Positions 22,781 to 39,935 of a DNA stretch of 64,000 nt are shown piece after piece. Numbering within the stretch: the first letter of the stretch is position 1; every line of letters starts with the position of its first letter. The stretch is from Actinomycetota bacterium. GTDB lineage: Bacteria; Actinomycetota; Actinomycetes; Mycobacteriales; Mycobacteriaceae. The notes under the pieces are model-generated. The model did no database searches. It saw nothing but the letters and a program-made list of their open reading frames with translations, and was not told the origin of the DNA. The stretch spans positions 95,140 to 159,139 of the forward strand of contig JAFDWN010000002.1 in the NCBI GenBank assembly GCA_018268465.1, in the 5' to 3' direction. A program made the translations under genes and the position numbers.

Positions 22781-22806
22781 GGGCGTCGACGGTATACGGT
22801 CGGGGA

Positions 22807-24433: not shown

Positions 24434-25033
24434 ATGATGAGATCCACTAGGAAAATGCTCGTGACCAGCATGATCGCCGCCGCGGCCGCGGTGCCGGTCG
24501 CGCTGACGCTCAGTGCGACGGCCTCGGCCCAGCCCGCGCCGCCGCCGGCACCGGCCCCCGCCCTGCCGGCGCTGCCCGCGCTACCGTTCATGGACCAGCT
24601 CGCCGCCGCGCCGGCCCTCGCGCCACAGCTGCTGCAGAGTGTCGCGTCGGTGCTGACCGGCGCGCCGGCCGCCGCGGCTCCCGCTCCCGCACCCACGGCC
24701 ACCGCCGCCGTGACACTGCCGCAGGCACCCGCGGCCGTTCCCCAGACCGTCGCCGCGCCGGCGGCAACGGCCACCGCTCCGGTGGCGGGCGCGCCCGGCT
24801 CACTGATCCCGTCGGGCGAGGTGAACCTGCCTCAGGTGCCGTTCCTGCCCGTGCCGCTGCCGCAGTCGGTGTCGTTCCCGGGTGACCTCGGGTCACTGGT
24901 GCCCGCGGGGCTGCCGGGCGCGGCACCTGTCGCACCGGCCGCGCCCGTCGCGCCCGTCACGGCACCACCGGCTGCGATTCCGGGGGTGGCGGGCCTGGCC
25001 CCGTTGATGTTCCCCGCCTCCGCGCTGCCCTGA
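24434..25033 (+). CDS. Secreted Ala/Pro-rich protein (Rv1158c-like)
   Basis: A 199-residue protein with a clear signal peptide (MMRSTRKMLVTSMIAAAAAV ... ATASA) followed by an almost entirely Ala/Pro/Val-rich sequence with recurring PALPALP, VPFLPVPLP and APVAP stretches. It is probably cell-wall associated or released. It corresponds in place and composition to Rv1158c. No domain is recognised. The start lies 10 bases after GGGAG. A 200-bp spacer upstream separates it from the divergent pimE. Confidence 0.75.
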   Translation: MMRSTRKMLVTSMIAAAAAVPVALTLSATASAQPAPPPAPAPALPALPALPFMDQLAAAPALAPQLLQSVASVLTGAPAAAAPAPAPTATAAVTLPQAPAAVPQTVAAPAATATAPVAGAPGSLIPSGEVNLPQVPFLPVPLPQSVSFPGDLGSLVPAGLPGAAPVAPAAPVAPVTAPPAAIPGVAGLAPLMFPASALP

Positions 25034-25084
25034 CACCTGAGTTGACCTGAGCCCATCACACCGACCCGACGCATTGGGAGTGTC

Positions 25085-26107
25085 ATGTCACCGACCAGAA
25101 CGCTGTATGTCACCGCGGTCGCGCTCGGCTCGTCGGCGGCGTTGCTACTGGGGTCCGGCGTCGCCGCCGCCGACCCCGCCACGCTGCCGATCGACGCCCT
25201 GCAGGCGCCCGGCCTCTCGGTCGTGCAAAGCCTCGGCCCGGCCATCCAGCAGGCGGCGGCGGATCCCACCAACGCCGCGTCGATGCTGATGGCGGCCGCG
25301 GCGGCGTTCACGGGTGACTCCTCGGCACCGACGGACACGCGCGATCTCGCCTCGGCGGTCAACCAGTTCGTCGCCCAGCCGGCGGTGTTGTCCACCGACC
25401 ATGTGCCCGCCGCGGGAGCGATCCCGGGCACGGTCGCGCATCTGCCGGCGGGGGTGGATCCGGCCAATGCCGTGGGCCCCGTACCCGAGGCCGTCGTGCA
25501 CCTGCCCGACGGCGCCGACCCGGCCACCGCGGTCGGGCCGGCCCCCGACGCCGTACCGGCGCCGCCCGCCGACGGGGCACCCGCCCCGGCTGCGGTGCCG
25601 GTCGGCAATCCGGTGCCCGCTCCTGAAGCGGCACCCGCTCCGGTGCCCGCACCCGACACCGCACCGGCCCCGGGTGCGGCACCCGGCTTCAGCCCGGACA
25701 GCCCGGTGACGCAGGACTTCATGTATCCGTCGATCAGCAACGGGTGTCTGAAGGACGGCGGGAACGTCCTGGCGGCGGCGATCTCGGTGGCCGGGCCGGC
25801 CAAGATCCCGACCCCCGGGCCCGCAGCCGGCCAGACCGCCTACGTGTTCACCGCGGTCGGCACGCCTGGACCCGCCGCCGAGCAGAAGCTGCCGCTGAAC
25901 GTCACCTGGGTCAACCTCACCACCGGTAAATCGGGCAGCGCCACGCTCAAACCGCAGGCCGACATCAACCCGCAGGGGCCGACGACACTGACCGCGATCG
26001 CGAATACCGGTTCGGGCAGCATCATCTCGACCATCTTCGGGCAGGTGACGACGACCGAGAAGCAGTGCCAGTTCATGCCGACGATCGGTTCGACCGTCGT
26101 GCCCTGA
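25085..26107 (+). CDS. Secreted Ala/Pro-rich protein with folded C-terminus (Rv1157c-like)
   Basis: A 340-residue protein. It has a signal peptide ending near SGVAAA, an Ala/Pro-rich middle with repeated P(A/V)AA and PEAAPAPVPAP patterns, and a distinct C-terminal domain of about 130 residues (from SISNGCLKDGGNV to KQCQFMPTIG). Two cysteines in that domain (in NGCLK and KQCQF) could form a disulfide. It follows the previous gene by 51 bases on the same strand and matches Rv1157c in place. GGGAG precedes the ATG. Function unknown. Confidence 0.78.
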   Translation: MSPTRTLYVTAVALGSSAALLLGSGVAAADPATLPIDALQAPGLSVVQSLGPAIQQAAADPTNAASMLMAAAAAFTGDSSAPTDTRDLASAVNQFVAQPAVLSTDHVPAAGAIPGTVAHLPAGVDPANAVGPVPEAVVHLPDGADPATAVGPAPDAVPAPPADGAPAPAAVPVGNPVPAPEAAPAPVPAPDTAPAPGAAPGFSPDSPVTQDFMYPSISNGCLKDGGNVLAAAISVAGPAKIPTPGPAAGQTAYVFTAVGTPGPAAEQKLPLNVTWVNLTTGKSGSATLKPQADINPQGPTTLTAIANTGSGSIISTIFGQVTTTEKQCQFMPTIGSTVVP

Positions 26108-26124
26108 ATCCTCCGCGGAAAGAG

Positions 26125-26159
26125 AAGTCCCGGTCGTCGGCATCCGGCGACCGGGACTT
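26125..26159. terminator. Strong bidirectional hairpin terminator
   Basis: A perfect 12-bp inverted repeat (AAGTCCCGGTCG and CGACCGGGACTT) with an 11-base loop lies between the convergent genes ending at 26107 and 26194. Confidence 0.8.
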
Positions 26160-26193
26160 CGCTGTCGTGGCAGGTCTGGCTTTCGCGGGAGGT

Positions 26194-26340
26194 CTAGTAG
26201 GCCATGAACAGGATGGCGTCGCGGTCGTAGTCGCGGCCCGGGTGCACCTCCGCCAGATGCGATTGCACCTTCTCGACCAGATCGTCCTCGTCCGCGCCGG
26301 TGATCGCCTCACCGCAGGGGCAGTTCAAATGTGTCTTCAT
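26194..26340 (-). CDS. DUF1059-like small protein
   Basis: A 48-residue acidic protein starting MKTHLNCPCGEAITGADEDD and continuing with EKVQSHLAEVHPG, the pattern of DUF1059 proteins (two Cys near the N-terminus, two His near the C-terminus, probably a small metal site). ATG 26340 is chosen over a longer frame because the family starts there. Function unknown. Confidence 0.75.
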   Translation of the reverse strand: MKTHLNCPCGEAITGADEDDLVEKVQSHLAEVHPGRDYDRDAILFMAY

Positions 26341-26428
26341 CACTTCACGATCCCACAGCGCCACCCCGGCACCCGCTGAGATCGCACCCCGGGGGATTCC
26401 GCCCCGATCCACCACGGAGACCGCGTTC

Positions 26429-27082
26429 TCACCGTGACGCGGCCTTCATCTGCTTCTTGTACGCCCGTACCTGTTGCAGCGAGGCCGGGTCGGTCACGTC
26501 GGCCACCGACATGTGGGTCCCCGCCTTGCCGTAGTCGCCCGCGGCCTCGCGCCAGCCCGCGGGCGCCACCCCGTACTGCTTGCCGAGCAGCGCCAGGAAG
26601 ATCCGCGCCTTCTGCTCGCCGAACCCGGGCAACGCCTTCAGCCGGCGCAGCACCTCCGCACCGTCGGCGCCGTCGGCCCACAGCCCCGCGGCGTCACCGT
26701 CGTAGCGGTCCACCACCACCTGCGCCAGGTCCTGGACCCGCTTGGCCATCGACCCCGGAAAGCGGTGTATCGCAGGGCGTTCCGAACACAACGCGACGAA
26801 CCGGTCGGGGTCGTACTCGGCGATCTCGCGCGCATCCACGCGGCCGACACGGTCGGCGATCTTCTTCGGCCCGGCGAACGCCGTCTCCATCGGCACCTGC
26901 TGAGAGGTATCAACACGATTTAGGTCAGCCGCAGCCATGCGGTCGGCAATCTTCTTCGGCCCCGAGAAGGCGACTTCGAGGGGGATCTGTTGGTCGAGAC
27001 ACATTCCGATCAGCAGGGCAAATGGGTTCTCCGAGAGGAGTTCGTCAGCCTCTCGCTCTTGAGCGAGGCAAAGACTCGACAT
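26429..27082 (-). CDS. Hybrid HhH-GPD base-excision-type protein (host 3' part, element 5' part)
   Basis: A 217-residue protein related to Rv1156, of the HhH-GPD DNA glycosylase superfamily. The host-derived part starts at VPMETAFAGPKKIADR and includes the helix-hairpin-helix LKALPGFGEQKARIFLALLG and the GDYGKAG region. The first 61 residues come from the integrated element: MSSLCLAQEREADELLSENP and on through LLIGMCLDQQ, a look-alike of the severed host N-terminus at 38107. The element part continues 31 residues past the LDQQ point, so the hybrid carries an internal near-duplicate (IPLEVAFSGPKKIADRM and VPMETAFAGPKKIADRV). ATG 27082 has AGGA upstream. A DNA-repair function is inferred from the family; whether the hybrid works is unknown. 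Confidence 0.8.
   Translation of the reverse strand: MSSLCLAQEREADELLSENPFALLIGMCLDQQIPLEVAFSGPKKIADRMAAADLNRVDTSQQVPMETAFAGPKKIADRVGRVDAREIAEYDPDRFVALCSERPAIHRFPGSMAKRVQDLAQVVVDRYDGDAAGLWADGADGAEVLRRLKALPGFGEQKARIFLALLGKQYGVAPAGWREAAGDYGKAGTHMSVADVTDPASLQQVRAYKKQMKAASR
26894..26902. other. attL core
   Basis: CACCTGCTG at this point is repeated at 38019-38027, with ATCG one base further left in both copies. The host HhH-GPD homology ends exactly here on the left side and resumes at the right copy. Confidence 0.75.
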
Positions 27083-27126
27083 GAGCTGTCCTATCGTTTT
27101 CGACGCACCACAGGAGGCAGTGGCAG

Positions 27127-27420
27127 ATGGAAGACAACTTAGCCGTGGACGCAACCGGCTGGTTGAGGTCGGCGCTCAGGAATCCCGACGTGATCGACAC
27201 CGAGCGATGGGTAGTGATGGAGATCGCCCAGAGCCCCGGTCGGCTCTGGTCGCCGGGAGACCTCATCGAGCTAGTCGAGACCGATTCGGTCGAGGTGCTC
27301 GTTGAGGCTGCCGAGGCAATCCGCAGAGCCCTGGATGAACTTATCGGCCTCGGACTGTTGGAGGTTGTCGTGTCGGTCGAGTTCGAACGCGAGGACATGC
27401 TGTTTCGGATACTGACCTAA
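27127..27420 (+). CDS. Small winged-helix-like protein, possible element regulator
   Basis: A 97-residue acidic protein at the extreme left of the element. The pattern DTERWVVMEIAQSPGRLWSP, LIELV, then AIRRALDELIGLGLLEVV looks like a winged helix, but I recognise no family. CAGGAGG lies ten bases before the ATG. It is divergent from the hybrid HhH-GPD gene with only 44 bases between start codons, so promoters for both must overlap there. A terminator follows. It could be a repressor, an excision control protein or neither. Confidence 0.6.
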   Translation: MEDNLAVDATGWLRSALRNPDVIDTERWVVMEIAQSPGRLWSPGDLIELVETDSVEVLVEAAEAIRRALDELIGLGLLEVVVSVEFEREDMLFRILT

Positions 27421-27443
27421 CCTGGCCCGCGCCCTACCGACAG

Positions 27444-27475
27444 GCCCCCGACGTTCACAGCGGCGGGGGCTTTGT
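27444..27475 (+). terminator. Intrinsic terminator
   Basis: GCCCCCG at 27444-27450 pairs with CGGGGGC at 27464-27470 and is followed by TTTGT. It ends the transcript of the gene at 27127. Confidence 0.8.
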
Positions 27476-27499
27476 CGTCGGTCAACCGAGGACGGCGGG

Positions 27500-27850
27500 C
27501 TGATCATCAACACCGAGGTTCGCGTCGTCACGATCGACGGCGAGCCGTGGTTCGTCGCCAAAGACGTGGCCAACGCGGTTGGCATCGCGGACGCAGCCCA
27601 AGCGGTTCGTTACCTGGACGACGACGAGCGGCAGTCGATCAACACAGCCGGGACTTCCCTGTTTACTGGACAGGGAACCCCGGTGACCTCGGTAATCAAC
27701 GAGTCCGGGCTGTACTCGCTGATCCTGCGGAGCCGCAAGCCCGAGGCCAAGGCGTTCAAGAAGTGGGTCACCTCGGTCGTCCTGCCGACGATCCGCAAGA
27801 CAGGCGCGTACGTCGACCCGAGCCAGGTGACTCCCGTCACATTCCTCTTG
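27500..27850 (+). pseudogene. BRO-N antirepressor remnant, left copy
   Basis: The frame reads INTEVRVVTIDGEPWFVAKD, then VANAVGIADAAQAVRYLDDD and later INESGLYSLILRSRKPEAK, KWVTSVVLPTIRKTGAYVDP, which is a nearly complete BRO-N domain. There is no ATG, GTG or TTG in frame before the domain (only CTG at 27500), and after about 27840 the reading runs into a non-coding repeat. It is therefore probably a decayed phage antirepressor. GTG 27566 could still give a shortened peptide. Confidence 0.65.
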
Positions 27851-28041
27851 GTTGGGTGTCAAGTTTTTCGCACCTACTTATATATGAGGGGCCTCGCTGG
27901 CGAACGAACACACGCATCCGGGTACGTCCGTACCCCTGAATCGCCTGCTGGCCTCTAGGGGCCCCGGTTGGATGTAAAGGTGAAGTACGTCACATTCTTC
28001 TAAGTTAGGTGTAAAGGGCGGGTTCCTATATATTGAGGGGC
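27835..28041. repeat. Imperfect direct repeat pair with TATATAT-GAGGGGC
   Basis: Copy 1 (27835-27892) and copy 2 (27988-28041) both run CGTCACATTC, TTC/CTC, a GTTGGGTGTCAAG or GTTAGGTGTAAAG box, then TATATAT and GAGGGGC. A third box, GTTGGATGTAAAG, sits at 27967-27979. The boxes differ at two to four positions from the GGTGG(C/A)TGTCAAG stoperators of cluster A mycobacteriophages. They could be repressor sites, promoters or part of an origin. Confidence 0.5.
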
Positions 28042-28131
28042 TCAGGAGAGCCCCCGCAAACTTGCTGGCTGCTCCCTGCTTCCCCTACAGGTGAGCGCCG
28101 CAACGGCTCTGGCAGCGACGCCATGGCCTCT

Positions 28132-28253
28132 GACGGTCGGTCGGATGCTCCCCCCTTGCCGACCGTCCCAGACTTCCTCGCTGACGGTCTCGTCAGCGTT
28201 GTAAGCCGCTGGCTTGGTAACCAGCGGATAAGGCACGCCCGCGAAGTCGTGCC
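28132..28253. other. Run of four perfect hairpins, candidate structured RNA or origin
   Basis: Four perfect inverted repeats follow one another: GACGGTCGG/CCGACCGTC (28132-28167), GCTGACG/CGTCAGC (28180-28197), CCGCTGG/CCAGCGG (28206-28227) and GGCACG/CGTGCC (28232-28253). An intrinsic terminator follows at 28272. No protein-coding sequence is convincing here. The arrangement could be a small non-coding RNA ended by the terminator, a replication or packaging signal, or a decayed tRNA-like element. Confidence 0.5.
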
Positions 28254-28271
28254 GACCCTCCTTTTGTGGAG

Positions 28272-28308
28272 AACCCTTGGCCTGCCGACATACCAGGCCG
28301 GGGGTTTT
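28272..28308 (+). terminator. Intrinsic terminator
   Basis: AACCC-TT-GGCCTG pairs with CAGGCC-GG-GGGTT around a nine-base loop and runs into TTTTCT. Confidence 0.8.
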
Positions 28309-28399
28309 CTCATTTACCACTCACCGATAGATCGGCTCGTCAGCGGCGAGCCTCCCACCTGATGGCGTGTCAGCGGCACGCCGGGAAGTAGCAACGACC

Positions 28400-28546
28400 A
28401 TGCCCCGATGCACCTTGCCGGGACACACCGAGTTCAAGCACGGGCACTGTGTCCAGTGTCGTCGCCGTCGCCAACGCGAGTACACGGCTGAGTGCCGTGC
28501 TGCCCGTCGCCGGTTGAAGGCGATAGAGGTTGCTCTCGCGGCCTGA
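28400..28546 (+). CDS. 48-residue Cys/His-rich basic protein
   Basis: The frame encodes MPRCTLPGHTEFKHGHCVQC followed by a strongly basic helix (RRRRQREYTAECRAARRRLK). C-x4-H and HxHC-x2-C spacing suggests a small zinc finger. It is too short for most gene finders. Only a weak GGAAG lies upstream, so expression is uncertain. It may be an element-encoded DNA-binding protein. Confidence 0.5.
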   Translation: MPRCTLPGHTEFKHGHCVQCRRRRQREYTAECRAARRRLKAIEVALAA

Positions 28547-28648
28547 GCGGCCCGCAGAGCGACGAACAGACTTCCCCTAGGTAATCACTTGGGGGACAAC
28601 AGAAGCGCGGATAGATGCCGCGTCCATTACCCAAAGGGAGGAACACCT

Positions 28649-28915
28649 ATGATCGACCAGACCGCACAGCTCCACGAGCTGCCTGACTACTGGCAGGCTC
28701 AGATACGAAAACTCCGGTCGGAGAATTACGAATTGCGTTCGCGGCTGAAAGGCAACGGCATCCGCGCCTCTGCCGATCTGGACGAGCTACCCAATTACTG
28801 GCGAAAGACTATTGTCGACCTCCGCAAGGAGAACGGCAGATACCGCACCGACCGCCGAGAACTACAGATCGAGGTCGAAGCTCTCCGCGCCGAGCTTGGT
28901 GCTCAGGACAAGTGA
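28649..28915 (+). CDS. Coiled-coil protein with internal duplication
   Basis: An 88-residue protein preceded by AAGGGAGG. Two copies of one unit are visible: HELPDYWQAQIRKLRSENYE and DELPNYWRKTIVDLRKENGR, each then continuing as a charged helix. The last 25 residues form a likely coiled coil. Its stop overlaps the helicase start (GTGA), so the two are translationally coupled. It may be a helicase loader or accessory factor; that is inference from position only. Confidence 0.7.
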   Translation: MIDQTAQLHELPDYWQAQIRKLRSENYELRSRLKGNGIRASADLDELPNYWRKTIVDLRKENGRYRTDRRELQIEVEALRAELGAQDK

Positions 28916-30156
28916 GCAACCCGCACTACTGGGCCTGTCGTCTACAGGAGCTTCAGCCGCTCGCATGGGACCAGCGAGCCCGCACGGTGTGGGCCTACGC
29001 AGACGGCGCGTGGTCGGAGGCCGACCACCTCGTCCGAGACCAGCTCCCCCGGCTTGCTCACGAGGCCCGCGACATTGGGAAGCTGATCAGCAACACCGAG
29101 CACCACCTGCGTTCTGCGCTGATCGGCCAAGGGGATCTGATCGACCCGTCGACACCTGATGTCGGCTGCGTGCCGACCCCGTCAGGTCTGTACGAGATCG
29201 CAACCGGCGAGGTGATCGAGCACGACCCCGGCGCTGACACGTTGTACCGGCTGGCCGTCGATCCGGTGTTCGACGGTAGCACCGAGGTGTTTGACGGCTA
29301 CCTACGGCAGACGTTCCACGACGGGGACGCTCCCCGCGTCCTGGACCTGCTGGCTTATTCGCTGGCACCTGGTAACCCCCGGCAGGAGGCGGTGATGTTG
29401 GTCGGTGCGGGAGGCAACGGCAAGGGTGTGCTTCTGCGGCTGCTGGCTGCGATGTTCCGCGAGGTCGACGTGGTCTCGGTGTCTCTTCAGGCGATGGCGA
29501 AAGACACGTTCGCTGCTCGACGGCTCTATGGCCGCGCGATGAACATCGTCCCGGAGATGAGCGCCGAGCGGATCGGTGACTCGACGCTGTTCAAGTCGGC
29601 AACCGGCGAGGACACGCTGGCGATGAACAAGAAGTACGGCGAAGCGATTGACGCGAAAGTCTGGGCGCACCATTGGTTTTCGGTCAACGAGATTCCTTCG
29701 TGCTCTGACGGCTCGGACGGTTGGGTCCGTCGCTGGCAGGTAGTCGAGTTCCCGAACCAACCGGATCGTTCGGATACGACGTTCGAGGCCCGGTTGCACC
29801 GGGAGCTGCCTGCGATTGTCGGCAAGCTGCTGCGTCGGTTGACCGAGAACGCTTCCGGCCGCTCGTACCTCGTGCGGGAGACCGCGGCGGGCAAGTCTGC
29901 GCTTGAGCGGCTGGCTGATCGGTCCAGCTCGATCCGCGCGTGGCTGTCTGACGTAGCGGCTGAGATCACCGAGCACCTGAACCAGACCGAGCTGCTGGAG
30001 CTGTTCCGCAAGTGGGCGTACGACGAGAACCTAGACGAGCGGTTCATCCCGACCCGCCGAGCGTTCGCGGAGAAGCTTCGCGCGGTGGTCGGCGCAGAGT
30101 GTGCGGTTAACGGAAAACGCGGCTGGACGCTCTCAAAATGCACCCTACGGGGGTGA
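28912..30156 (+). CDS. SF3 helicase / P4-type primase C-terminal protein
   Basis: A 414-residue protein of the phage/plasmid primase P4 family. Walker A is GAGGNGKGVLL near residue 165. Walker B and motif C of superfamily 3 are probably in the regions RAMNIVPEM and WAHHWFSVNEIP, followed by DGWVRRWQVVEFP, typical of the D5-like ATPase. The N-terminal 110 residues resemble the D5_N segment (GCVPTPSGLYE). A catalytic primase domain is not seen, so it may act as the replicative helicase. GTG start overlaps the preceding stop. Iterons lie at and beyond its 3' end. Confidence 0.85.
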   Translation: MSNPHYWACRLQELQPLAWDQRARTVWAYADGAWSEADHLVRDQLPRLAHEARDIGKLISNTEHHLRSALIGQGDLIDPSTPDVGCVPTPSGLYEIATGEVIEHDPGADTLYRLAVDPVFDGSTEVFDGYLRQTFHDGDAPRVLDLLAYSLAPGNPRQEAVMLVGAGGNGKGVLLRLLAAMFREVDVVSVSLQAMAKDTFAARRLYGRAMNIVPEMSAERIGDSTLFKSATGEDTLAMNKKYGEAIDAKVWAHHWFSVNEIPSCSDGSDGWVRRWQVVEFPNQPDRSDTTFEARLHRELPAIVGKLLRRLTENASGRSYLVRETAAGKSALERLADRSSSIRAWLSDVAAEITEHLNQTELLELFRKWAYDENLDERFIPTRRAFAEKLRAVVGAECAVNGKRGWTLSKCTLRG

Positions 30157-30248
30157 AAATGCACCCTAATCGGGCGTAAATGCACCCTACTTGCACCCTG
30201 TTTTGCGGCATTACCGCAGGTCGCAGCTCCGAGGGTGCAAAAGGTGCA
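30139..30248. repeat. TGCACCCT iterons, candidate replication origin
   Basis: TGCACCCT occurs at 30139, 30160, 30181 and 30192 in direct orientation, spaced 21, 21 and 11 bases (two, two and one helical turns). An inverted copy AGGGTGCA is at 30232 and a partial one at 30242. The first copies overlap the helicase gene end. The non-coding stretch 30157-30420 otherwise holds no recognised gene. Confidence 0.6.
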
Positions 30249-30420
30249 TGTTTTTCGCAGAAGCTTTCTAGCTGCTACATGGCGTGCATCGTCCCGAGCG
30301 CAGCGAGGGCACTAATCACCGGGTCTCGGTCAGGTCGGCCGAGGCCCTTTTGCTTGCCCAGATCAGGGCAGAACCACGGGATCGCCAACCGGCGACCCGA
30401 ACCGCAGAAGAGGGGAACAC

Positions 30421-30573
30421 ATGAATCAGCTAGAGCAGGCGGTCATCGCCGCCGCTGAGCACGGCGCACCGCCGAAAACCTGGCACGTCGGCCCTGACGC
30501 CGTGATCCAACTGGCCGAGGGCATCGGCCACCTGTTGACCGGCTCGACGGTCACACACTGGACGCATGATTGA
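30421..30573 (+). CDS. 50-residue hypothetical protein
   Basis: A short frame starting MNQLEQAVIAAAEHGAPPKT, preceded by AGAGGGG six bases away. Its stop TGA (30571-30573) overlaps a possible TTG start of the HNH gene. No family is recognised. The good ribosome site and tight junction argue for a real gene. Confidence 0.5.
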   Translation: MNQLEQAVIAAAEHGAPPKTWHVGPDAVIQLAEGIGHLLTGSTVTHWTHD

Positions 30574-30593
30574 GCGACGGGCCGAAGCGAATA

Positions 30594-31142
30594 ATGTCCG
30601 AGAAGAGATGCACCAAGTGCGACACGGTCAAGCCGGTAGAGGAATTCAACCGCCGGGCGTCGGCCAGAGACGGACTACACCCGCATTGCAGGAAGTGCCA
30701 GCAACTCGCAAACACGGCCTACCGCGCTGAGCACCGAGAGGCGCTTTGTGGGAAGCGGAGGGAGTTCTACCGGAACAACCAGGACCGCCTACGCGACGAG
30801 GCTAGGGCCCGACACGCTGCCTACCGAGCAGCGGACCCGATGTACGAACGACTCAAGTGCGGCAAACACAAGGCCGTTCGTCGCGGTTGCTCGGTTGAAC
30901 AGTTCACCTCCGCTGACCTCCTGGCCTATTGGCAGGCGGTCGGTATAGACCCGACCCGCTGCTACTACACCGGGGAGCTACTCGGAGACGGCTGGCAATT
31001 GGATCACATGACGCCGCTCGCAAGGGGCGGCCCTCATGCCGTTTGGAACTTGGTTCCGTGCCTGGCGTCCGTGAACAACCTGAAGCAGGACAAGACAGCA
31101 GACGAGTACCTGAACAACAACCGAGAGGTAGTAGCGGCGTGA
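30594..31142 (+). CDS. HNH endonuclease (copy 1)
   Basis: A 182-residue protein. The N-terminal CTKCDTVKPVEEFNRR ... CRKC is a zinc-finger module common in phage HNH proteins. The C-terminal nuclease core is CYYTGELLGDGWQLDHMTPL, ARGG and NLVPCLASVNNLK, with the H-N-H residues visible. It shares most of its C-terminal sequence with the second HNH protein at 32714. A TTG at 30570 would add eight residues and overlap the previous stop. Phage HNH proteins act in packaging-linked cleavage or homing; the role here is unknown. Confidence 0.85.
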   Translation: MSEKRCTKCDTVKPVEEFNRRASARDGLHPHCRKCQQLANTAYRAEHREALCGKRREFYRNNQDRLRDEARARHAAYRAADPMYERLKCGKHKAVRRGCSVEQFTSADLLAYWQAVGIDPTRCYYTGELLGDGWQLDHMTPLARGGPHAVWNLVPCLASVNNLKQDKTADEYLNNNREVVAA

Positions 31143-31603
31143 TAACAGAGACCCCGGTAGCTGGGGCTGAGATCAATTCTGAGCCACTTTCAGACGAATC
31201 TGGTACGTCGGTACCAGACGAGACACCGGACGGCTCTGAGAGGCCGATGCCACGAGAACAGCGGTACCGGCTCGAATTGCGGGAGGCAGAGCGGCAGCGT
31301 GACGCCCTGGCTCAGCGGGTAGACCTGCTAACCCGCCGAGAGGTCGAGCGTATCGCTGGCGAGCACCTGGCCCAAGGGGCCGATCTCTTGGGGATCTCAG
31401 GCAACAGCCTCGATGCTTACATCAACGAGGAGACCGGCGAGGTTGACGCTGACCGCGTCCGCGAGGACGCCAGGATCTTGCTGGCCGACCGTCCGGGTCT
31501 GCGGAAGAACGCGGCTGCGTTCGACCCGTCGCAGGGGCTCGGGGGACGGCCTCCGCAGAAGACCGGCCCGCAGTCGCTGGGCCAAGTAATCCTGATGTCT
31601 TGA
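31139..31603 (+). CDS. Capsid scaffold-like protein
   Basis: A 154-residue acidic protein, GTG start overlapping the HNH stop. The N-terminal half is disordered and acidic. The middle is a coiled coil (EQRYRLELREAERQRDALAQ, REVERIAGEHL), and the end has QGLGGRPPQKTGPQSLGQVI. Length, coiled coil, basic-proline tail and place directly before the capsid gene are typical of actinophage scaffolding proteins. Assignment is by form and position. Confidence 0.65.
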   Translation: MITETPVAGAEINSEPLSDESGTSVPDETPDGSERPMPREQRYRLELREAERQRDALAQRVDLLTRREVERIAGEHLAQGADLLGISGNSLDAYINEETGEVDADRVREDARILLADRPGLRKNAAAFDPSQGLGGRPPQKTGPQSLGQVILMS

Positions 31604-31703
31604 GCTTGCCCGTCGTCTGTGGCGACGGCGCTAGTTCACCAATGCCTCTGTGAGGCAACAAGATCCGAGCCTGCGGCTCGGTGACTCACACAACAACTAA
31701 TCG

Positions 31704-31728
31704 GGCCTCTGACAGCGAGTCAGGGGCC
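31704..31728 (+). terminator. Hairpin upstream of the capsid gene
   Basis: GGCCTCTGAC pairs with GTCAGGGGCC around AGCGA and is followed by TTACTC. A second hairpin, CCGAGCC/GGCTCGG, lies near 31666-31681. They separate the scaffold and capsid genes and may terminate or stabilise transcripts. Confidence 0.55.
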
Positions 31729-31753
31729 TTACTCATGTCCATAGGAGGACAAC

Positions 31754-32584
31754 ATGGCGATGAATCACGCAGGCACCAATGACGCCTTCACCCCGGTTGA
31801 GTTCGGCAAGCTGCTGAACAAGGCCCTCCAGTCCGAGTCGGTCGCGCTGCAGGCGACCACGGTCGTTCACACCGACAAGGTCGGCATGACGTTCCCGATC
31901 TGGGAGAGCGACCCGGCCGTGAACTGGCTGGCCGAGTTGGCCACCATCACGGCGACTGACGGCGCTACCGGCGGCGTCCCCGTCGTCCCGAGCAAGGTCG
32001 GTGGCATCACGCGCCTGTCCAACGAGCTGGCTGACGACTCCAGCCCCGAGGTTGCAGAGCTGGCCGTCCGTGGTCTGGTCAACCAGATCGCTCACGCGGT
32101 CGATACCGCGTTCGCGGGCAACACCGTGACGAACGGCCCGAGCGGTCTGCTCAGCACGGCCTACACCGCCGTGGACACGGGTGCGAGCATCACGAACCTG
32201 GACCCGTTCATCTCGGCTGTGTACAAGGCGAAGGCCGTTGGCGCGAAGCTGACTTCGTGGGTCATGGACCCGGCCGTCGCTGAGACCGTCCAGAAGCTGA
32301 AGCGGTCGACCGGTTCCAACGAGAACCTGATCGAGTTCACCGCGAACGGCGATCTCGCCATCTGCGGGCTGCCGGTCTACACGCTGCCCGCCGTGGACGC
32401 GGCAACGCTGTTCTGGGGGATCCCCGAGGACCGTGTCGTGACCGTGCTCCGCAAGGACGCCGAGGTGACCCGGTCGAAGGATTCCGGTTTCTACAATGAT
32501 GCCCTTGATGTTCGCGCCATCACGCGCGTTGGCCTGGGCTTCCTCCACCCCGCCGCGATCATCAGGGGTTACGACGCGGCCTGA
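31754..32584 (+). CDS. Phage major capsid protein (HK97-fold type)
   Basis: A 276-residue protein starting after ATAGGAGGACAAC. The run VEFGKLLNKALQSESVALQ, GMTFPIWESDPAVNWLAE, KVGGITRLSNELADDSSPEV, and the late DRVVTVLRKDAEV and DVRAITRVGLGFLHPAA are characteristic of actinophage HK97-fold capsid proteins. There is no fused protease or long N-terminal delta domain, in keeping with a separate scaffold. A strong terminator follows. Having its own capsid gene sets this element apart from satellites that only remodel helper capsids. Confidence 0.88.
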   Translation: MAMNHAGTNDAFTPVEFGKLLNKALQSESVALQATTVVHTDKVGMTFPIWESDPAVNWLAELATITATDGATGGVPVVPSKVGGITRLSNELADDSSPEVAELAVRGLVNQIAHAVDTAFAGNTVTNGPSGLLSTAYTAVDTGASITNLDPFISAVYKAKAVGAKLTSWVMDPAVAETVQKLKRSTGSNENLIEFTANGDLAICGLPVYTLPAVDAATLFWGIPEDRVVTVLRKDAEVTRSKDSGFYNDALDVRAITRVGLGFLHPAAIIRGYDAA

Positions 32585-32645
32585 TCCCTTGCGGGACAAG
32601 GTGACTCGCCTTAGCGACGGCTAGGGCTTGAGAATGACAGCAGAG

Positions 32646-32680
32646 CCCCGAGGTTCCCTCCGAGCCTCGGGGTTTCTGTT
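32646..32680 (+). terminator. Intrinsic terminator after the capsid gene
   Basis: CCCCGAGG (32646-32653) pairs with CCTCGGGG (32665-32672), followed by TTTCTGTT. Confidence 0.85.
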
Positions 32681-32713
32681 GTCTTTCCAACACAATCGGA
32701 GGACCAAACCCAG

Positions 32714-33181
32714 ATGAAGACTTGCAGCAAGTGTGAATTGTCCAGACCGCTGGCTGAGTTCAATCGCAGCAGTCGCAGGGGCTACCAGAGTCGGTGCCGC
32801 GACTGCCAGAAGGCTGACTATCGAGGCGGCAAGGACAGGCACAGGCATTTGATGAAATGCGCCAACGCGCGGAGGCACCAAGCCGACCCGATCGCCCGAC
32901 GCCTATCCAACGCCGGGACCAAAGCCCGCCTCCTCGGCTGCGCCGTGGAACGGTTCACATCCGCAGATCTATTGGCCTACTGGCAATCACAGGGCATAGA
33001 CCCAACCCGCTGCTACTACAGCGGCGAGCCGCTTGGCGACGGATGGCACCTGGATCACAAGGTGCCGTTGTCTCGGGGTGGGGAACATGCCACTCACAAC
33101 GTCGTCCCCTGCAGTGCGTCAGTGAACATCTCCAAACACGACCGCACCGCCGACGAGTACCGAGAGGCGGTCTCAGCGTGA
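32714..33181 (+). CDS. HNH endonuclease (copy 2)
   Basis: A 155-residue paralogue of the HNH protein at 30594. It has an N-terminal CSKCELSRPLAEFNR ... CRDC finger and the nuclease core CYYSGEPLGDGWHLDHKVPL, SRGG and NVVPCSASVN. It is separated from copy 1 by the scaffold and capsid genes. ATCGGAGGA precedes the ATG. Its stop overlaps a GTG that could start the next gene. Confidence 0.85.
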   Translation: MKTCSKCELSRPLAEFNRSSRRGYQSRCRDCQKADYRGGKDRHRHLMKCANARRHQADPIARRLSNAGTKARLLGCAVERFTSADLLAYWQSQGIDPTRCYYSGEPLGDGWHLDHKVPLSRGGEHATHNVVPCSASVNISKHDRTADEYREAVSA

Positions 33182-33198
33182 CCGAGGAGAGAGCACAG

Positions 33199-33654
33199 AT
33201 GACCGACACAACCGAGAGCCCGCAGCGCCGCAAGAGACGGCGCACGCGCCGAGGGAGCACCAAGAGCGCCAACAAGCCCGTTGGCATCAGACCGAACCAG
33301 TCGACCAAGCCCTGTCCGCGCGAGGGCTGCCGGGGGTTCGTCAAGAGACCCGAAGCTGACCACTGCAGCTACCTGTGCGGCGTGATCGCCTCAGAGCTTG
33401 AGAAAGTCCAGCGGATCTGCGAATACCTGGGCACCGCAGGGCTGACCTCCGAATTGTGGTCCGAGGCCGTCGCACTCAGCGACACATGGACTCGGTACGT
33501 CGAGCTTGACCGTCGTATCTACAGAGCTGCTGCAGCGGTAGGAATATCAGACAAGCAATGGCGAGCGATCAAAGAGGGCACCAAGGACGAGCCGGCTGCT
33601 CATTACGCACCCGGTACTAGTCCTCAGGAGCCTGTTGCGGACGCTCACCGATAG
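33199..33654 (+). CDS. Phage protein with basic N-terminus and Cys cluster
   Basis: A 151-residue protein. Residues 1-25 are very basic (QRRKRRRTRRGSTKSANK). A Cys/His cluster follows (CPREGCRGFVKRPEADHCSY then LC), possibly one zinc site, and then a helical C-terminus. ATG 33199 has GAGGAGAG at good distance; a GTG at 33178 overlapping the HNH stop would add seven residues. Homologues are common beside HNH and terminase genes of actinophages in my recollection, but I assign no function. Confidence 0.6.
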   Translation: MTDTTESPQRRKRRRTRRGSTKSANKPVGIRPNQSTKPCPREGCRGFVKRPEADHCSYLCGVIASELEKVQRICEYLGTAGLTSELWSEAVALSDTWTRYVELDRRIYRAAAAVGISDKQWRAIKEGTKDEPAAHYAPGTSPQEPVADAHR

Positions 33655-33946
33655 GCGTTGCGCCGGGAAGTATCGGCGGCGGTAGCCCATCTTCATCCAA
33701 ACCCCAGGTCTCGATGTATTCGCCGGTTGCCTTGTTCACCGAGATGAACGGGCCGTCCTCGACGTAGATGAACTCGTAGTCGGCAGGGCTGCGGGGTCCG
33801 TAGACCTCCGCGTACGATCCCGCGGTCATCTGGAAGAACTCCTCGCTCTCCCATCCCCACGGGGCGACCAGGAACTCGGCCTCGGCCGGGTACGCGGATG
33901 CGCGATTGGCAGCCACGATGTCTCTTGCTCGCTCGAACGTGATCAA
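33617..33946 (-). CDS. Opposite-strand accessory protein (YrhB/Imm35-like)
   Basis: A 109-residue acidic protein, the only gene besides the integrase on the minus strand of the element interior. It starts MITFERARDIVAANRASAYP, has a PWGWESEEFF segment and DGPFISVNKATGEYIETWGL, a pattern like the YrhB/Imm35 family (GP-V-k-TG-v). The TTG start is preceded by GAGGAGG. Its 3' end overlaps the preceding gene by 38 bases. In satellites such reverse-strand singletons are often accessory genes, e.g. for immunity or phage interference; that role is a hypothesis. Confidence 0.6.
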   Translation of the reverse strand: MITFERARDIVAANRASAYPAEAEFLVAPWGWESEEFFQMTAGSYAEVYGPRSPADYEFIYVEDGPFISVNKATGEYIETWGLDEDGLPPPILPGATPIGERPQQAPED

Positions 33947-34234
33947 TCCGGCCTCCTCGGGTCACATAGTCACAGGTGGGACGGACAAGCGCAAGAGTGG
34001 TAATTAGCTCAGGCTTCAGGCAGGCGAGGGTGTATGCGCTGCTAGAAGAGCTGCGCGGTGCTGGACGTGGGTTTGCTGTAGACCCCCAGGGGGGTTACCC
34101 CTCCCTGCCCCCTCCTCGACCGGTCGGTTATGCGGCTGACCTTGCGTCCCGGGATCCCCTGTGTTTTCGCCCGACAAACGACCAGCTCACTGCACAAACT
34201 CCCAGGTCACAGACGACCAGAAACGAGGACAAAA
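33947..34234. other. Non-coding stretch before the small terminase gene
   Basis: No supported gene. It must hold the promoter for the terminase-connector block and that of the reverse-strand gene. A frame at 33976-34284 is open but has no ribosome site and no family resemblance. GACCCCCAGGGGGGTTACCCC around 34081-34100 can form alternative hairpins. Confidence 0.5.
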
Positions 34235-34597
34235 ATGGCCGAGAAGGTGCCCAAAGCACCTACCGGACTCCGGGCACGAGGTAGGCGCATGTGGCGCGAG
34301 CTGTGGACCGTCTACGACTTTTCAGAGGCCCCCGAGCGCGTGTTCCTGCTGGAGGACGCGTGTCGGGTGGCCGACCTCATCGACCGGCTCCAGGCGGTCG
34401 TATCCGAAGCCGACGACCTCAGGGTCCGAGGCTCCCAAGGGCAGCCGGTCGGCATGCCCGAACTCGACTCACTCAGGCACTACCGGGCTTTGCTGGCCCA
34501 GCTCATCAAGTCGCTGGGCCTGCCCGACGAGGACGACAGCGGCAACACGCCGCAAAGCTTCTCGCGGCTCGGAAACGCCGCCAGATGGAGGAAATAG
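34235..34597 (+). CDS. Phage terminase small subunit
   Basis: A 120-residue protein beginning MAEKVPKAPTGLRARGRRMW and continuing ELWTVYDFSEAPERVFLLED, CRVADLIDRLQAVV, then RGSQGQPVGMPELDSLRHYR. This is the P27-like or mycobacterial prophage terminase small subunit pattern, also seen in phiRv1/phiRv2. It binds packaging sites and recruits a large terminase. No large subunit is present in the element, so a helper phage enzyme would be needed. CGAGGA precedes the ATG. Confidence 0.82.
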   Translation: MAEKVPKAPTGLRARGRRMWRELWTVYDFSEAPERVFLLEDACRVADLIDRLQAVVSEADDLRVRGSQGQPVGMPELDSLRHYRALLAQLIKSLGLPDEDDSGNTPQSFSRLGNAARWRK

Positions 34598-34600
34598 TAG

Positions 34601-34795
34601 ATGGCTAGACCCAAGCGCAGGAAAACCGCACAGCAGCAACAGCAGGCCGCAACCGGCGAGATGATCGCCGACTACCTGCACCGTCGACTGACGGGGCAGG
34701 TCACGCCACGACGCGGCTACCGCGGCCCTGTAGACGAGGGACTGTTGGCTCAGCTCAAGCAACGGCTGGCCGCTGCCCTCGGCAGGCGTCCATGA
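34601..34795 (+). CDS. 64-residue basic hypothetical protein
   Basis: A basic, Gln-rich protein (MARPKRRKTAQQQQQAATGE then MIADYLHRRLTGQV). TGGAGG is upstream. Its stop overlaps the next start (ATGA). No function is recognised. Confidence 0.65.
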   Translation: MARPKRRKTAQQQQQAATGEMIADYLHRRLTGQVTPRRGYRGPVDEGLLAQLKQRLAAALGRRP

Positions 34796-34980
34796 ACGAG
34801 GAACCTCAGGAATGGCCATACGGCGATGCGGAAGCATATTTGAGCGCCCAGCTCCGCTGGGACGCCTACGCCGAGCCCTGGACCCACGAGGACGAGCGCG
34901 CCCGTATGGCGCAACGGGCAGCCCTGGCAGCCCACCCGACCAGCATCAGCGCACCCGCTGCTGTGATGACCAACTACTGA
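34792..34980 (+). CDS. 62-residue acidic hypothetical protein
   Basis: An acidic, Trp-rich protein (MNEEPQEWPYGDAEAYLSAQ, then LRWDAYAEPWTHEDERARMA). It overlaps the preceding gene by four bases and so is probably translated in coupling. No family is recognised. Confidence 0.65.
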   Translation: MNEEPQEWPYGDAEAYLSAQLRWDAYAEPWTHEDERARMAQRAALAAHPTSISAPAAVMTNY

Positions 34981-35023
34981 AAGGTGTGTCGGCTACGCCG
35001 CCACGCCGAAGGAGAACAACCAC

Positions 35024-35161
35024 ATGCCACGCCGCAATAGCTGTGCCGGGCCCCGACTGGAGTTCGGCACAGGACCGGGGGCCCAGGCCCCGCACGCCTA
35101 CTTTCCCCCGCCGTTGGGACGGCCGAAGATCACCCGTCGCGGCCACAAAGGACAGCGATGA
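35024..35161 (+). CDS. 45-residue hypothetical protein
   Basis: A short frame starting MPRRNSCAGPRLEFGTGPGA and ending KITRRGHKGQR. AAGGAGAA precedes the ATG by eight bases and the stop overlaps the next start (ATGA at 35158-35161), so a real coupled gene is likely. No family is recognised. Confidence 0.55.
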   Translation: MPRRNSCAGPRLEFGTGPGAQAPHAYFPPPLGRPKITRRGHKGQR

Positions 35162-35550
35162 CGTACGCCGCAGCCGCTGACGTTCAGGCGGTCCTCGGCC
35201 GCGAGCTGGACACCACAGAGACGGTGCTTGTCGAGCGCCGGTTAGCCCAGGTAGAGCGGATGATCCTGCGTCGCGTGCCTGACCTGGTCGACAAGATCGC
35301 AGCCGAGGACATCGACGCGGCTGATGTGATCGACATCGAAGCTGAGGCCGTACTCCGCGTCATCCGCAACCCCGAGGGGCTGCGGTCAGAGCAGGATGGC
35401 CAGTACGGCTACCAACTGTCGAACGAGGCAGCCGACAACCGGCTACGGCTGACCTCCGAGGAGTGGGAATTGCTCGGCATCAAGCGCAGCCGGGTATTCG
35501 CGATCGGTCCAGCCGTCCGCGACTGGGACGGTCGGCTGGTGTCGCTGTGA
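35158..35550 (+). CDS. Head-tail connector (adaptor)-like protein
   Basis: A 130-residue, largely helical protein beginning MTYAAAADVQAVLGRELDTT and continuing TVLVERRLAQVERMILRRVP. It ends in a loop-rich segment (AFAIGPAVRDW-like). This pattern and length match the adaptor (Gp19-type) head-to-tail connector proteins of actinophages. It overlaps the preceding and following genes by four bases each. Confidence 0.72.
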   Translation: MTYAAAADVQAVLGRELDTTETVLVERRLAQVERMILRRVPDLVDKIAAEDIDAADVIDIEAEAVLRVIRNPEGLRSEQDGQYGYQLSNEAADNRLRLTSEEWELLGIKRSRVFAIGPAVRDWDGRLVSL

Positions 35551-35891
35551 GCTTGCTACGCAAGGGATCCGAAGTCGTGACCGTGTTCCCAGAAGAGACC
35601 GTAACCGACACCGATGGCAATACCCGCACCCGCGCGGGCTCGGTTGGCGTGGTCGTCCGAGCATCTGTACAGCCGATCAGCTCAACTGAGAACGCTGACG
35701 GCGCAGGGTTCACCACGACCAGCCGCTACCGGCTGCGGCTGGCAGGCGGATACCCCACAGGCGGCGGCATCCTCGGAGCACAGTCCAAAGTGGAATGGCG
35801 CGGCAAGCTCTACTCCATCGAAGGCGATGCCCAGCTCCACAACGGGTCCTCCCGCACAGCTCACGCTGTGTACGTGATGGTCCGCTCATGA
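35547..35891 (+). CDS. Head-tail stopper-like protein
   Basis: A 114-residue beta-rich protein (VSLLRKGSEVVTVFPEETVT, then GVVVRASVQPISSTE, YRLRLAGGYP, SKVEWRGKLYSIEGDAQLHN). It resembles the stopper (Gp16/HTJP-type) proteins that close the portal after packaging. GTG 35547 overlaps the adaptor stop. With the adaptor it suggests the element builds a helper-compatible neck, though it has no portal gene. Confidence 0.7.
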   Translation: MSLLRKGSEVVTVFPEETVTDTDGNTRTRAGSVGVVVRASVQPISSTENADGAGFTTTSRYRLRLAGGYPTGGGILGAQSKVEWRGKLYSIEGDAQLHNGSSRTAHAVYVMVRS

Positions 35892-35937
35892 GAGCGGCCA
35901 TCCAGGCGCGTCGGCAACTCCGTTGCTTAGCGATGGT

Positions 35938-36317
35938 TCGGTCGTGACCATCGACGGACGGCACCCGACCCTGGTCGGTGCCTAAGAGCGAACGGCTAAG
36001 CCGATTCGCGAGAGCCCTGGTTCGTAGCCAAGGACGTGTGCGACGTGCTCAAGCTCTACAACGTCAGCCAAACGATCGCGTATCTGGACCCCGACGAGAA
36101 ACAGCAGGTCAGCGCGACCATCATCAATAGTGATAGTCGGCCGGGATCGGGTCCGCAGTCGATCTCCCTCATCAACGAGTCCGGGCTCTACTCACTGGTG
36201 CTGAGCCGATCCTCGTTCTCGCTCTTGGACGATGACGAGAAGGGTGCGTCTACTATCCGCAATGCCCAGGTCAACGCGCAGATGTCCGTCATCAACGAGT
36301 CGAGTGTGAGGAGCTGA
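35938..36317 (+). pseudogene. BRO-N antirepressor remnant, right copy, interrupted
   Basis: The reading VVTIDG near 35944 is followed by about 50 bases containing a hairpin (GGCACCCGACC/GGTCGGTGCC) and stop codons. EPWFVAKDVCDVLKLYNVSQ then resumes near 36012 and continues SLINESGLYSLVLSRSS. A second partial copy of the same motif (LLDDDEKG ... SVINES) follows before the stop. It is therefore a broken and internally rearranged BRO-N gene. GTG 36036 could start a 93-residue peptide. Confidence 0.65.
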
Positions 36318-37991
36318 CTACCGGCCTGGCGAGCGCAGGTAGTACTCCTGCTGCTCGTCGTCCATCCACGTCGGATCCTGCACAGCCCCCGACCGATCGA
36401 AGTAACTGCGCTCTCCCTTGCGGCTGAGCACGTACCGCATACCTGCGTCTAGGTAGAGTTGCCGACGCTCCCCCTCGTCGGCAGCCTTCCAAGCTTCCTC
36501 TTTCGTCTGGCCGGTCTCCTCGGTCACCCAACCGGCCGCGCGGCTCGGCATCGCAGCTAGCTGGTCGCGCTTGGCCACTTGAGCTTTCATCCGCTCCAGC
36601 CATTGGCGATCGTCATCGGGGGTAGTCAACAGACCGGCGTCGGACTCCATCCGCAGCCGATCGATAGTCGCGTTGACCTGCTCCAGCTCGGCGCTGTGGT
36701 CTTCCCCCGGCACGAACACGCTGCGGGTCATCGGCTCATCGCCCCGAAACCAGCCGAACTCATGCATCAATTGAAAGTCCACGTCGTCGGCTCGTGAGCT
36801 GACACCGTTGCAGTTCAAAGGGGTTCGGCCGCAGCGGTAGCTACGCCACTCCCCCATTTCGCCGCTGGCGAGCCTCTTTCGGGTGATCTGCTGCGCCAAC
36901 GAGGAACCGCAGATAGGCCCGTCCCGGCGCTCGTCACATGCAGGGCAGCCGGTGCAACCGCAGACGGCCACACCGAGGACCGGATTGGCCGTCTTGCTCG
37001 GTGTCCGCTGCCCGAGCTTTCGGAGCTGGGCAGCCTCTTGGATCTGCTTCCACGTGTCGGCGTCGAACGTCGGCGGGCCCAGCCTGATCGGCTCCCCCTC
37101 GGAGTCGAGCACGGTCATCGCCGACTTGCCGCGACCAGTCATCTTGAGTCCCTGAGTCCTCGGAGAGGTAAGCCCGTCTATGACCGTGTTGACAGTCCAC
37201 GGTCGAGCCTTCGGAGGCTTGCCACCCGCGACCCGAGCGCGGTCCATGTTCGTGAGGGCTGCTCTGTCCCGGCACTCGCAGCCTTCGACGTGCCGACGGC
37301 CGCAGCGAGGATCGGAGTACGGCTCGTTGAGCCACGCCGCAACCCGAATGAAGCTCCAGCCATCCAGCAGACGGCGAGCCATCGCATGGAGTAGTGCCTT
37401 CCCGGTCTCGTCGGTGTCGAGACCCTTGCCTTTGCCGCTCGGATGGTCGATCACCTTGAACCCGAGCGGAGGCACCCCTGAGGCCCACCGATCCATCTGC
37501 CTGAGGGCTCGGTGGCTGTCCTGGGCCCTGGTCTTGAACCTGTTCAGCTCCAGTTGAGCAAAGAACGAGCCGAGGTAAACGAACAGCTCGGCCATCATCT
37601 CGTCAACGCCCTTGACGGCCCCCGGCCGCTTGGGCCGGTAGTCAAGCGTCAGCCCGTCGTCGGCGAACGCGACGACCTTGTGCCGTTCCTCGGCCCACCG
37701 TGCGAAGTCGACACAGTGCCGGGTGGACCGGAAAGCTCGGTCCATCTTCGACCAGACGATTACGTCCCATGTGGCCGCACCGTCGTCGGTCAGCCACGGC
37801 CCGAGGTCTGGCCGGTCCTCGGGTCGCTTCTCGGCTGATACGCCGAGGTCTTCAAACGTGCCAACTATCTTGTAGCCCTTGGCTTCTGCCCATTTGGTCG
37901 CAGTCTCGATCTGCGCGATATGTGAGACCTTCTCCGGTCCCTGGACAACCGACACGCGGGCTCCTACGAGGGCCCGAAGCTGCTTCGTCAC
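36318..37991 (-). CDS. Large serine integrase
   Basis: A 557-residue large serine recombinase. The N-terminal resolvase domain has the catalytic Ser in RVSVVQG (Ser14) and the region VIVWSKMDRAFRSTRHCVDF. The recombinase domain follows (MDRWASGVPPLGFKVIDHPS), then a zinc-ribbon region with CGCTGCPACDERR and YRCGRTPLNC, and a coiled coil (LEQVNATIDRLRMESDAGLL). GTG 37991 is 28 bases from the attachment core. The frame stays open across the attachment site into host DNA, but that extension cannot be native. The start overlaps the stop of the severed host fragment (GTGA), so in the lysogen it may be translated from a host-initiated transcript. Confidence 0.92.
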   Translation of the reverse strand: MTKQLRALVGARVSVVQGPEKVSHIAQIETATKWAEAKGYKIVGTFEDLGVSAEKRPEDRPDLGPWLTDDGAATWDVIVWSKMDRAFRSTRHCVDFARWAEERHKVVAFADDGLTLDYRPKRPGAVKGVDEMMAELFVYLGSFFAQLELNRFKTRAQDSHRALRQMDRWASGVPPLGFKVIDHPSGKGKGLDTDETGKALLHAMARRLLDGWSFIRVAAWLNEPYSDPRCGRRHVEGCECRDRAALTNMDRARVAGGKPPKARPWTVNTVIDGLTSPRTQGLKMTGRGKSAMTVLDSEGEPIRLGPPTFDADTWKQIQEAAQLRKLGQRTPSKTANPVLGVAVCGCTGCPACDERRDGPICGSSLAQQITRKRLASGEMGEWRSYRCGRTPLNCNGVSSRADDVDFQLMHEFGWFRGDEPMTRSVFVPGEDHSAELEQVNATIDRLRMESDAGLLTTPDDDRQWLERMKAQVAKRDQLAAMPSRAAGWVTEETGQTKEEAWKAADEGERRQLYLDAGMRYVLSRKGERSYFDRSGAVQDPTWMDDEQQEYYLRSPGR

Positions 37992-38107
37992 GGTTGCAAT
38001 GGTATCGTCACCTGCTGGTCCAGCAGCATGCCGACCAGCAGCGCGAAGGGATTGGCTTCCAGCAGGGCGTCGGCCTCGGGTTCCTGAACAAGCTGCAGTT
38101 TGGCCAC
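37988..38107 (-). pseudogene. Severed 5' end of the host HhH-GPD gene
   Basis: GTG 38107 begins VAKLQLVQEPEADALLEANP, continuing FALLVGMLLDQQ; host homology then ends at the core (38019) and the frame reads seven element codons to a TGA at 37988-37990. The missing remainder of the gene starts at 26893 on the other side of the element. The stop overlaps the integrase start by four bases. Confidence 0.82.
38019..38027. other. attR core
   Basis: CACCTGCTG, identical to 26894-26902; the conserved ATCG lies one base to the left in both. Its place at the LDQQ codons of the host gene marks the integration point. The true crossover dinucleotide within it cannot be fixed from one lysogen. Confidence 0.75.
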
Positions 38108-39905: not shown

Positions 39906-39935
39906 GCCTGCAACCAGGCCGGGGACGAGTGCGCC

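Follow-up and report, generated by a model that had tools for sequence, protein, structure and literature searches.

Introduction

In the available portions of the published reports, integrative elements and prophages associated with dusA are said to provide a new strand in place of the one that is lost (PMC4482086; for IMEVchUSA3, PMC8409611), and for IMEVchUSA3 a new promoter and a restored reading frame were shown (PMC8409611). SXT at prfC likewise supplies a new promoter and N-terminus (Hochhut and Waldor 1999, cited in PMC8409611); since the dusA islands and SXT/prfC are already described, the principle of 5'-end replacement is known. According to the accessible parts of PMC2884959 and PMC9262239, the gene that Bxz2 enters is Msmeg_5156, which encodes a putative DNA glycosylase. 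Here we analyze an integrated element of ~11.1 kb that lies within the 5' coding part of a TIGR03252 (HhH-GPD-type) gene in a 64,000-nucleotide stretch of DNA, called the window below, from an Actinomycetota bacterium (Mycobacteriaceae; GCA_018268465.1, contig JAFDWN010000002.1, positions 95,140 to 159,139). The source genome (G000) is of Mycobacterium type and 6.9 Mb long.

Results

Junctions and the hybrid gene

The features on which the following description depends are these (ORF, open reading frame; aa, amino acids; attL and attR, left and right attachment sites; attP, attachment site of the element):

26429..27082, minus strand: hybrid HhH-GPD (TIGR03252) gene, element 5' part and host 3' part in frame, ATG to TGA, 217 aa
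26429..26893, minus strand: host 3' part of the gene
26894..26902, minus strand: left 9-bp core CAGCAGGTG (attL)
26903..27082, minus strand: mimic carried by the element, 49 codons with homology to the N-terminus of the host protein, then a linker of 11 codons that forms the attP left arm
27083..27126, no strand: element-borne region upstream of the hybrid, common to a divergent ORF
26903..38017, no strand: integrated element, ~11.1 kb
36321..37991, minus strand: serine integrase, 557 aa, Resolvase and Recombinase domains, GTG start
37988..38107, minus strand: orphaned host N-terminal remnant, 39 aa, GTG start, reading VAKLQLVQ...LLDQQVTIPLQP*
38009..38017, minus strand: right 9-bp core CAGCAGGTG (attR)

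The core CAGCAGGTG occurs exactly twice in the whole window, at 26894-26902 and 38009-38017. At the right junction the host GTG and 30 codons are followed by the core and then by attP DNA, in which the remnant ORF ends at 37988; at the left junction the order is the element ATG at 27082, 49 homologous codons, 11 linker codons, the core and the host gene down to 26429. An earlier sequence-only reading of this DNA had proposed that integration swaps the 5' end of the HhH-GPD gene in frame and cuts the host N-terminus at its LDQQ codons. Both proposals agree with the open 217 aa frame (27082-26429, minus strand) and with the remnant (38107-37988, minus strand), although the positions it gave for the cut, 38019 and 38028, are about ten bases off. 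Its description of a look-alike start joined through the 9-bp core needs extension: the in-frame join is there, but the element's part also copies the protein past LDQQ and adds a linker. This copy runs on as IPLEVAFSGPKKIADRM through GPKKIADRM and is followed by AAADLNRVDTS and then by the host's QQVPMETAFAGPKKIADRV. The product thus contains a tandem copy (14/19 aa and 40/57 bases identical, offset 30 aa), and, because the copy continues past the crossover, the hybrid exceeds the inferred native protein by 30 residues.

Joining the two flanks at the core by script gave a 187-aa ORF with no internal gap, in which 153 of 193 aligned columns are identical to the native gene of genome G398; the inferred empty site is therefore a single unbroken gene, as had been predicted for the bacterial attachment site (attB). 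The hybrid matches TIGR03252, an HhH-GPD-type base excision repair protein family of unproven function, in two stretches with E 9.5e-102 and 338.4 bits (cut-off 136.5). Solved homologs were not found by sequence at E 0.01, and the best Foldseek matches of both the native and the hybrid model were HhH DNA glycosylases (e.g., NTHL1), none with E <0.001. The native model has a mean pLDDT (predicted local distance difference test) of 94.6 and places QQ in the loop that connects helices 20-29 and 35-39. The hybrid model has a mean of 86.2; mimic residues 1-30 and the host part have high values, residues 31-60 average 47-52, residues 33-42 and 54-61 fall below 50, and the remaining fold is confident. 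The helices of the mimic may thus replace the lost host helices with the extra stretch looped out and the fold otherwise intact, a reading that is suggestive only because the natives in the structure alignment were gapped at that point.

All DNA upstream of the hybrid is derived from the element, and the hybrid would be expressed from it, possibly under the element's control as the sequence-only reading held. A TAGACT box, as in native genes, lies 8 nt upstream of the GTG region of the remnant, and the attP right arm (37989-38017) contains TACCAT 7 nt ahead of the integrase GTG; a TAnnnT box ~7-8 nt ahead of the integrase start was read by eye in the window and in other attP right arms. The remnant stop overlaps the integrase start as GTGA in the window and as ATGA in M. 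hodleri and M. tusciae. In Mycolicibacter arupensis (G102) and G361 the remnant ORF stops directly after the core, and in G109, G147 and G379 it continues in another frame. Capture of a host gene promoter by the integrase was dropped as a general rule, since the overlap is not universal and the attP right arm already holds a TAnnnT box.

Integrase-bearing relatives

At a threshold of E 1e-120 or better, integrase homologs were found in 10 of 396 sampled genomes of the genus and in three of 397 genomes of the order, all three of the same genus; a scan of named genomes gave nine integrase loci and added M. tusciae and Rhodococcus coprophilus. Among the 12 integrase genomes, eight have a mimic joined in frame, three are occupied at the same site but have no mimic, and the remaining one (M. 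austroafricanum, G061) has its integrase at another site and the gene intact. The eight are the window, M. xanthum (G147), Mycolicibacter arupensis, M. komossense (G379), M. hodleri (G035), G109, Mycolicibacterium sp. CBMA 247 (G143) and M. tusciae, so that every integrase-bearing genome that carries a mimic has it in frame (8/8), although in G147 and G379 integrase and hybrid are on separate contigs. Together with the TIGR03252 score of the hybrid, the 8/8 count makes the arrangement more than a chance occurrence. These cases answer the earlier suggestion to look for other integrases beside 5' mimics of HhH-GPD genes.

The integrase was matched by 348 phage records, and the three phages inspected, Herbertwm, Stasia and Peaches, have the CAGCAG core before int and only this short core, with no mimic. 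A tblastn search of 50,697 phage records with the mimic gave no match at E 1 or below (two irrelevant matches appeared at E 5). Two viral-contig loci were uninformative, as one begins at the integrase and the other has upstream DNA of the other-site G061 type. The attP left arm of Herbertwm (L024) and of G346 (L064/L050), whose attP is Herbertwm-like, reads TACGAT-CACGAT-GTG in frame with the host QQ codons and could act as a short, non-homologous start of the truncated gene.

Hybrids and probable element-derived front ends across the genus

At E 1e-82, a search with the hybrid as query matched 16 of the 396 genus genomes; one of these, G398 (E 5e-83), holds a native gene and was excluded, which leaves 15 hybrids, 13 with the long copy and linker and two (G010 and G392) with a 12-residue insertion instead. 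The linker is 9-15 residues long, counted from the M/L after IADR, and always of whole codons in 14 of the 16 hybrids compared, G010 and G392 being the other two. Seven of the 15 genomes also carry the integrase. Elsewhere, G361 retains 3 kb between native remnant and hybrid, with no integrase match and the hybrid intact; in G365 the native N-terminal remnant is frameshifted and the hybrid is intact; and G219, G095, G318, G392 and G010 have a hybrid with a single N-terminal copy and no such integrase, the ORFs upstream of it looking chromosomal in the two inspected (G219 and G010). As far as these loci can be compared, hybrids persist after decay of the element or where no element is found.

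M. xanthum has two right-end-type junctions whose left half is mimic-type instead of native, and G365 and G396 each have one extra unjoined mimic upstream of the hybrid; judging from these mimic-type junctions and extra mimics, integration seems to have occurred in genes whose front end already came from an element. The order of the M. xanthum tandem is not resolvable from the assembly, in which integrase and hybrid are on different contigs. Some resolved genes fit recombination between both copies, e.g., the single-copy gene of G016, which has QQISMELAF of the G396 mimic and then host sequence. Also in M. xanthum, a transposase-like ORF adjoins a right-end junction that is orphaned, with no integrase (L061, 9906-9998 and 10240-10404), and the region upstream of the hybrid (L062, 12050-14001) holds, by eye, nucleotidyltransferase-like and pentapeptide-repeat-like ORFs that are possible cargo.

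Constraint on the mimic and history of the N-terminus

Over 16 mimics the ratio of nonsynonymous to synonymous differences (pN/pS) is 0.216 in frame and 1.70 and 2.31 in the other frames, and differences at the three codon positions number 927/661/3006 over 120 pairs, which are not independent of one another. The related mimics of M. hodleri and M. tusciae have dS 0.18 and dN 0.02 (synonymous and nonsynonymous divergence). Judged from these values, the mimic evolves as coding sequence. In seven elements compared, mimic DNA is 63-75% identical to the element's own host N-terminus and on average 67-73% identical to the other mimics; with identity to the own host no higher than this, the mimics were not captured recently from the present host. 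Synonymous recoding that would hide the mimic from the integrase is not general, as CAGCAG has become CAACAG in only three of seven mimics.

N-terminal types (LCL/LWL/LYL versus LQL/LHL) were compared on a tree of the downstream part with 48 rows, from which non-mycobacterial rows were excluded and which includes hybrids picked for the trait; G036 (disrupted frame) and G050 and G045 (no ORF with the motif used) were left out of trees and counts. The type changes at least 14 times on this tree, 10 changes being forced by starred branches, and it clusters no more strongly than in shuffles (75 and 79 of 500 as low). A mimic-type N-terminus is present in nine of 32 single-copy genes. Matches in upstream DNA were found in 0/576 mixed pairs, 105/276 native pairs and 19/276 mimic-type pairs, and on this measure upstream DNA goes with N-terminal type; among the nine single-copy genes of mimic type, seven share upstream DNA with a hybrid, in some cases over just 19-34 bases. 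A single old event may lie behind G001, G010, G017, G031 and G392. Next to single-copy LQL genes there are often DUF732/kinase or PPOX genes (at some LQL loci neither), and at LCL genes other DNA intervenes before those neighbors. TAnnnT stands 5-9 nt before the start in 8/16 hybrids (0.29 expected), 22/23 native LQL genes and 4/7 LCL/LWL genes, a count that used 30 of the 32 single-copy rows, two being without a nearby ATG or GTG.

Gene content of the element

The element has a G+C content of 0.63, compared with 0.69 in its flanks, and carries in addition to the integrase:

27512..27958, plus strand: truncated BRO-N anti-repressor
28912..30156, plus strand: P4-family primase/helicase
31754..32584, plus strand: HK97-type major capsid protein
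34130..34597, plus strand: small terminase homolog
35158..35550, plus strand: head-tail adaptor Ad1
35499..35891, plus strand: head closure Hc1

Only two stop-to-stop frames of at least 300 aa are present, those of the primase and the integrase, and there is therefore no space for large terminase, portal and tail genes. With integrase and major capsid present, the element looks like a capsid-encoding phage satellite, a candidate phage-inducible chromosomal island (PICI). By tblastn its capsid was found in the window, G035, G379 and M. tusciae, with no match in the fetched parts of G102, G109, G143 and G147. BRO-N anti-repressor N-terminal pieces lie at opposite ends of the element (27512-27958 and 36036-36317), both truncated, which suggests that its regulatory genes are decaying. 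A homolog of the phrog_3585 immunity protein lies inside the element (33617-33946, minus strand). Rfam gave zero matches in window positions 22000-42000.

Discussion

We think it likely that the element regrafts the front of the gene, keeping an in-frame hybrid by means of its homologous mimic, sparing the protein and doing so recurrently. The view that the gene is replaced and not destroyed, held already by the sequence-only reading, gains comparative support from the open frames, the coding constraint on the mimic, the hybrids that outlast element decay and the plausible fold. Several points weigh against it. Confidence in the hybrid model at the insertion is biased by the gapped natives, constraint on the mimic could in part predate its capture, the window hybrid has no TAnnnT box at the 5-9 nt (leaderless) spacing, and the hybrid search sees joined hybrids only, out-of-frame ones being invisible to it. 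In addition, the three occupants without a mimic, in G346 (a ~52-kb prophage), R. coprophilus and Mycolicibacter sinensis (G387, where the gene is additionally frameshifted), truncate the gene, and hosts can therefore survive without it; since the R. coprophilus element is only ~10 kb long, absence of the mimic is not limited to full phages.

Truncation by these three occupants is also what would be expected if integration were an ordinary disruption, with the gene dispensable, the hybrid not made and the likeness due to attB/attP matching only, and in M. smegmatis the Bxz2 integration site lies, according to the portions available of PMC9262239, within a gene for a putative DNA glycosylase. 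Such matching, however, needs tens of bases and not 49 codons, Herbertwm, Stasia and Peaches manage with the short core, and the mimic is absent from the phage records searched (0/50,697 at E 1 or below), so we regard disruption as improbable. We are equally disinclined to see the mimic as a passive scar, in which aberrant excision of an ancestor took part of the host gene beside attP and the open frames are historical. The mimic is indeed a true homolog adjoining attP, and two unjoined mimics occur in the tandem remnants of G365 and G396, but the 8/8 in-frame joins, the whole-codon linker changes, the pN/pS of 0.22 and the distance of mimics from their own hosts, comparable to that from other mimics, speak against a scar.

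The mimic might, alternatively, serve chiefly to restore the attachment site, its LDQQ codons forming a fresh putative attB that enables stacking. The attR-type junctions of M. xanthum with their mimic-type left half, the tandem mimics of G365 and G396 and the retention of GA[CT]CA of the inferred crossover by all mimics (seven elements inspected at codon level) are in keeping with this; against it, three of seven mimics have CAACAG instead of the core CAGCAG, and the M. xanthum evidence is spread over separate contigs with the element order not fixed. We consider this explanation doubtful, though worth bearing in mind.

We picture regrafting as follows: the serine integrase recombines in a conserved HhH-GPD gene, at a site that spans its invariant LDQQ codons, with attP at the 3' end of a short element reading frame homologous to the gene's N-terminus. 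Integration, as the junction sequences show, exchanges the host promoter and N-terminus for the N-terminus and putative promoter of the element while keeping one continuous frame. The copy passes the crossover with attP between, adding ~30 residues that the model puts in a loop between two helices. The mimic would be retained since it preserves a repair-type protein for the host, whose function would survive, and so cuts the cost of occupying a broadly conserved site, to the benefit of host and element. Later the two copies may recombine and elements may stack or decay, leaving the element-derived gene fronts seen in comparison across the genus. More speculatively, and we put this forward only tentatively, this mycobacterial element lineage could be a gene-front exchanger that grafts its own promoter and N-terminal module at each integration and leaves them behind, so that the 5' half-domain and the regulation of a core gene would be largely element-set across the genus, possibly aiding elements in DNA damage or induction.

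If regrafting is correct, intragenic integration is made survivable in a phage-satellite lineage by a true homolog of the target's N-terminus, and a datable record exists of a conserved gene whose front ends were exchanged many times in one genus. It also raises the question of whether gene reconstruction is a reason that serine integrases can use attB sites in coding sequence, and annotators should be aware that unusual insertions and N-terminal variation in the TIGR03252 family may be element-derived.

Comparison with known systems

Like the elements at dusA and prfC, this one is inserted in the 5' coding part of its target and, from its sequence, supplies a new in-frame start and N-terminus. 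The dusA elements have a tyrosine-type integrase and differ in target gene and phylum, the target here being TIGR03252 and the integrase of Resolvase/Recombinase type; their descriptions, in the portions available, mention neither a long homologous copy extending beyond the crossover nor a tandemly duplicated product, nor a genus-wide record of swapped front ends. The SXT/R391 integrative and conjugative elements share a 5'-end target with the window element but are 100-kb-class conjugative elements, and their integrase belongs to another family. The window integrase groups with the large serine integrases of cluster-A mycobacteriophages by homology and by the CAGCAG core beside int; those of Herbertwm, Stasia and Peaches are 58.8-78% identical to it, with the attP core CAGCAG just before int in both, but these phages are without the N-terminal mimic of the window element. 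Bxz2 likewise uses a putative DNA glycosylase gene, Msmeg_5156, which may or may not be the TIGR03252 target gene. Candidate mycobacterial PICIs and phiRv1-like elements are, as here, small and carry integrase and major capsid, but the available text of that report describes no 5'-gene reconstruction (PMC10654092), and the portions of the literature covered by our search gave no report of such an N-terminal mimic. What is new here is the serine integrase, the phage-satellite setting, the long homolog past the crossover, the in-frame tandem duplication and the repeated replacement across the genus.
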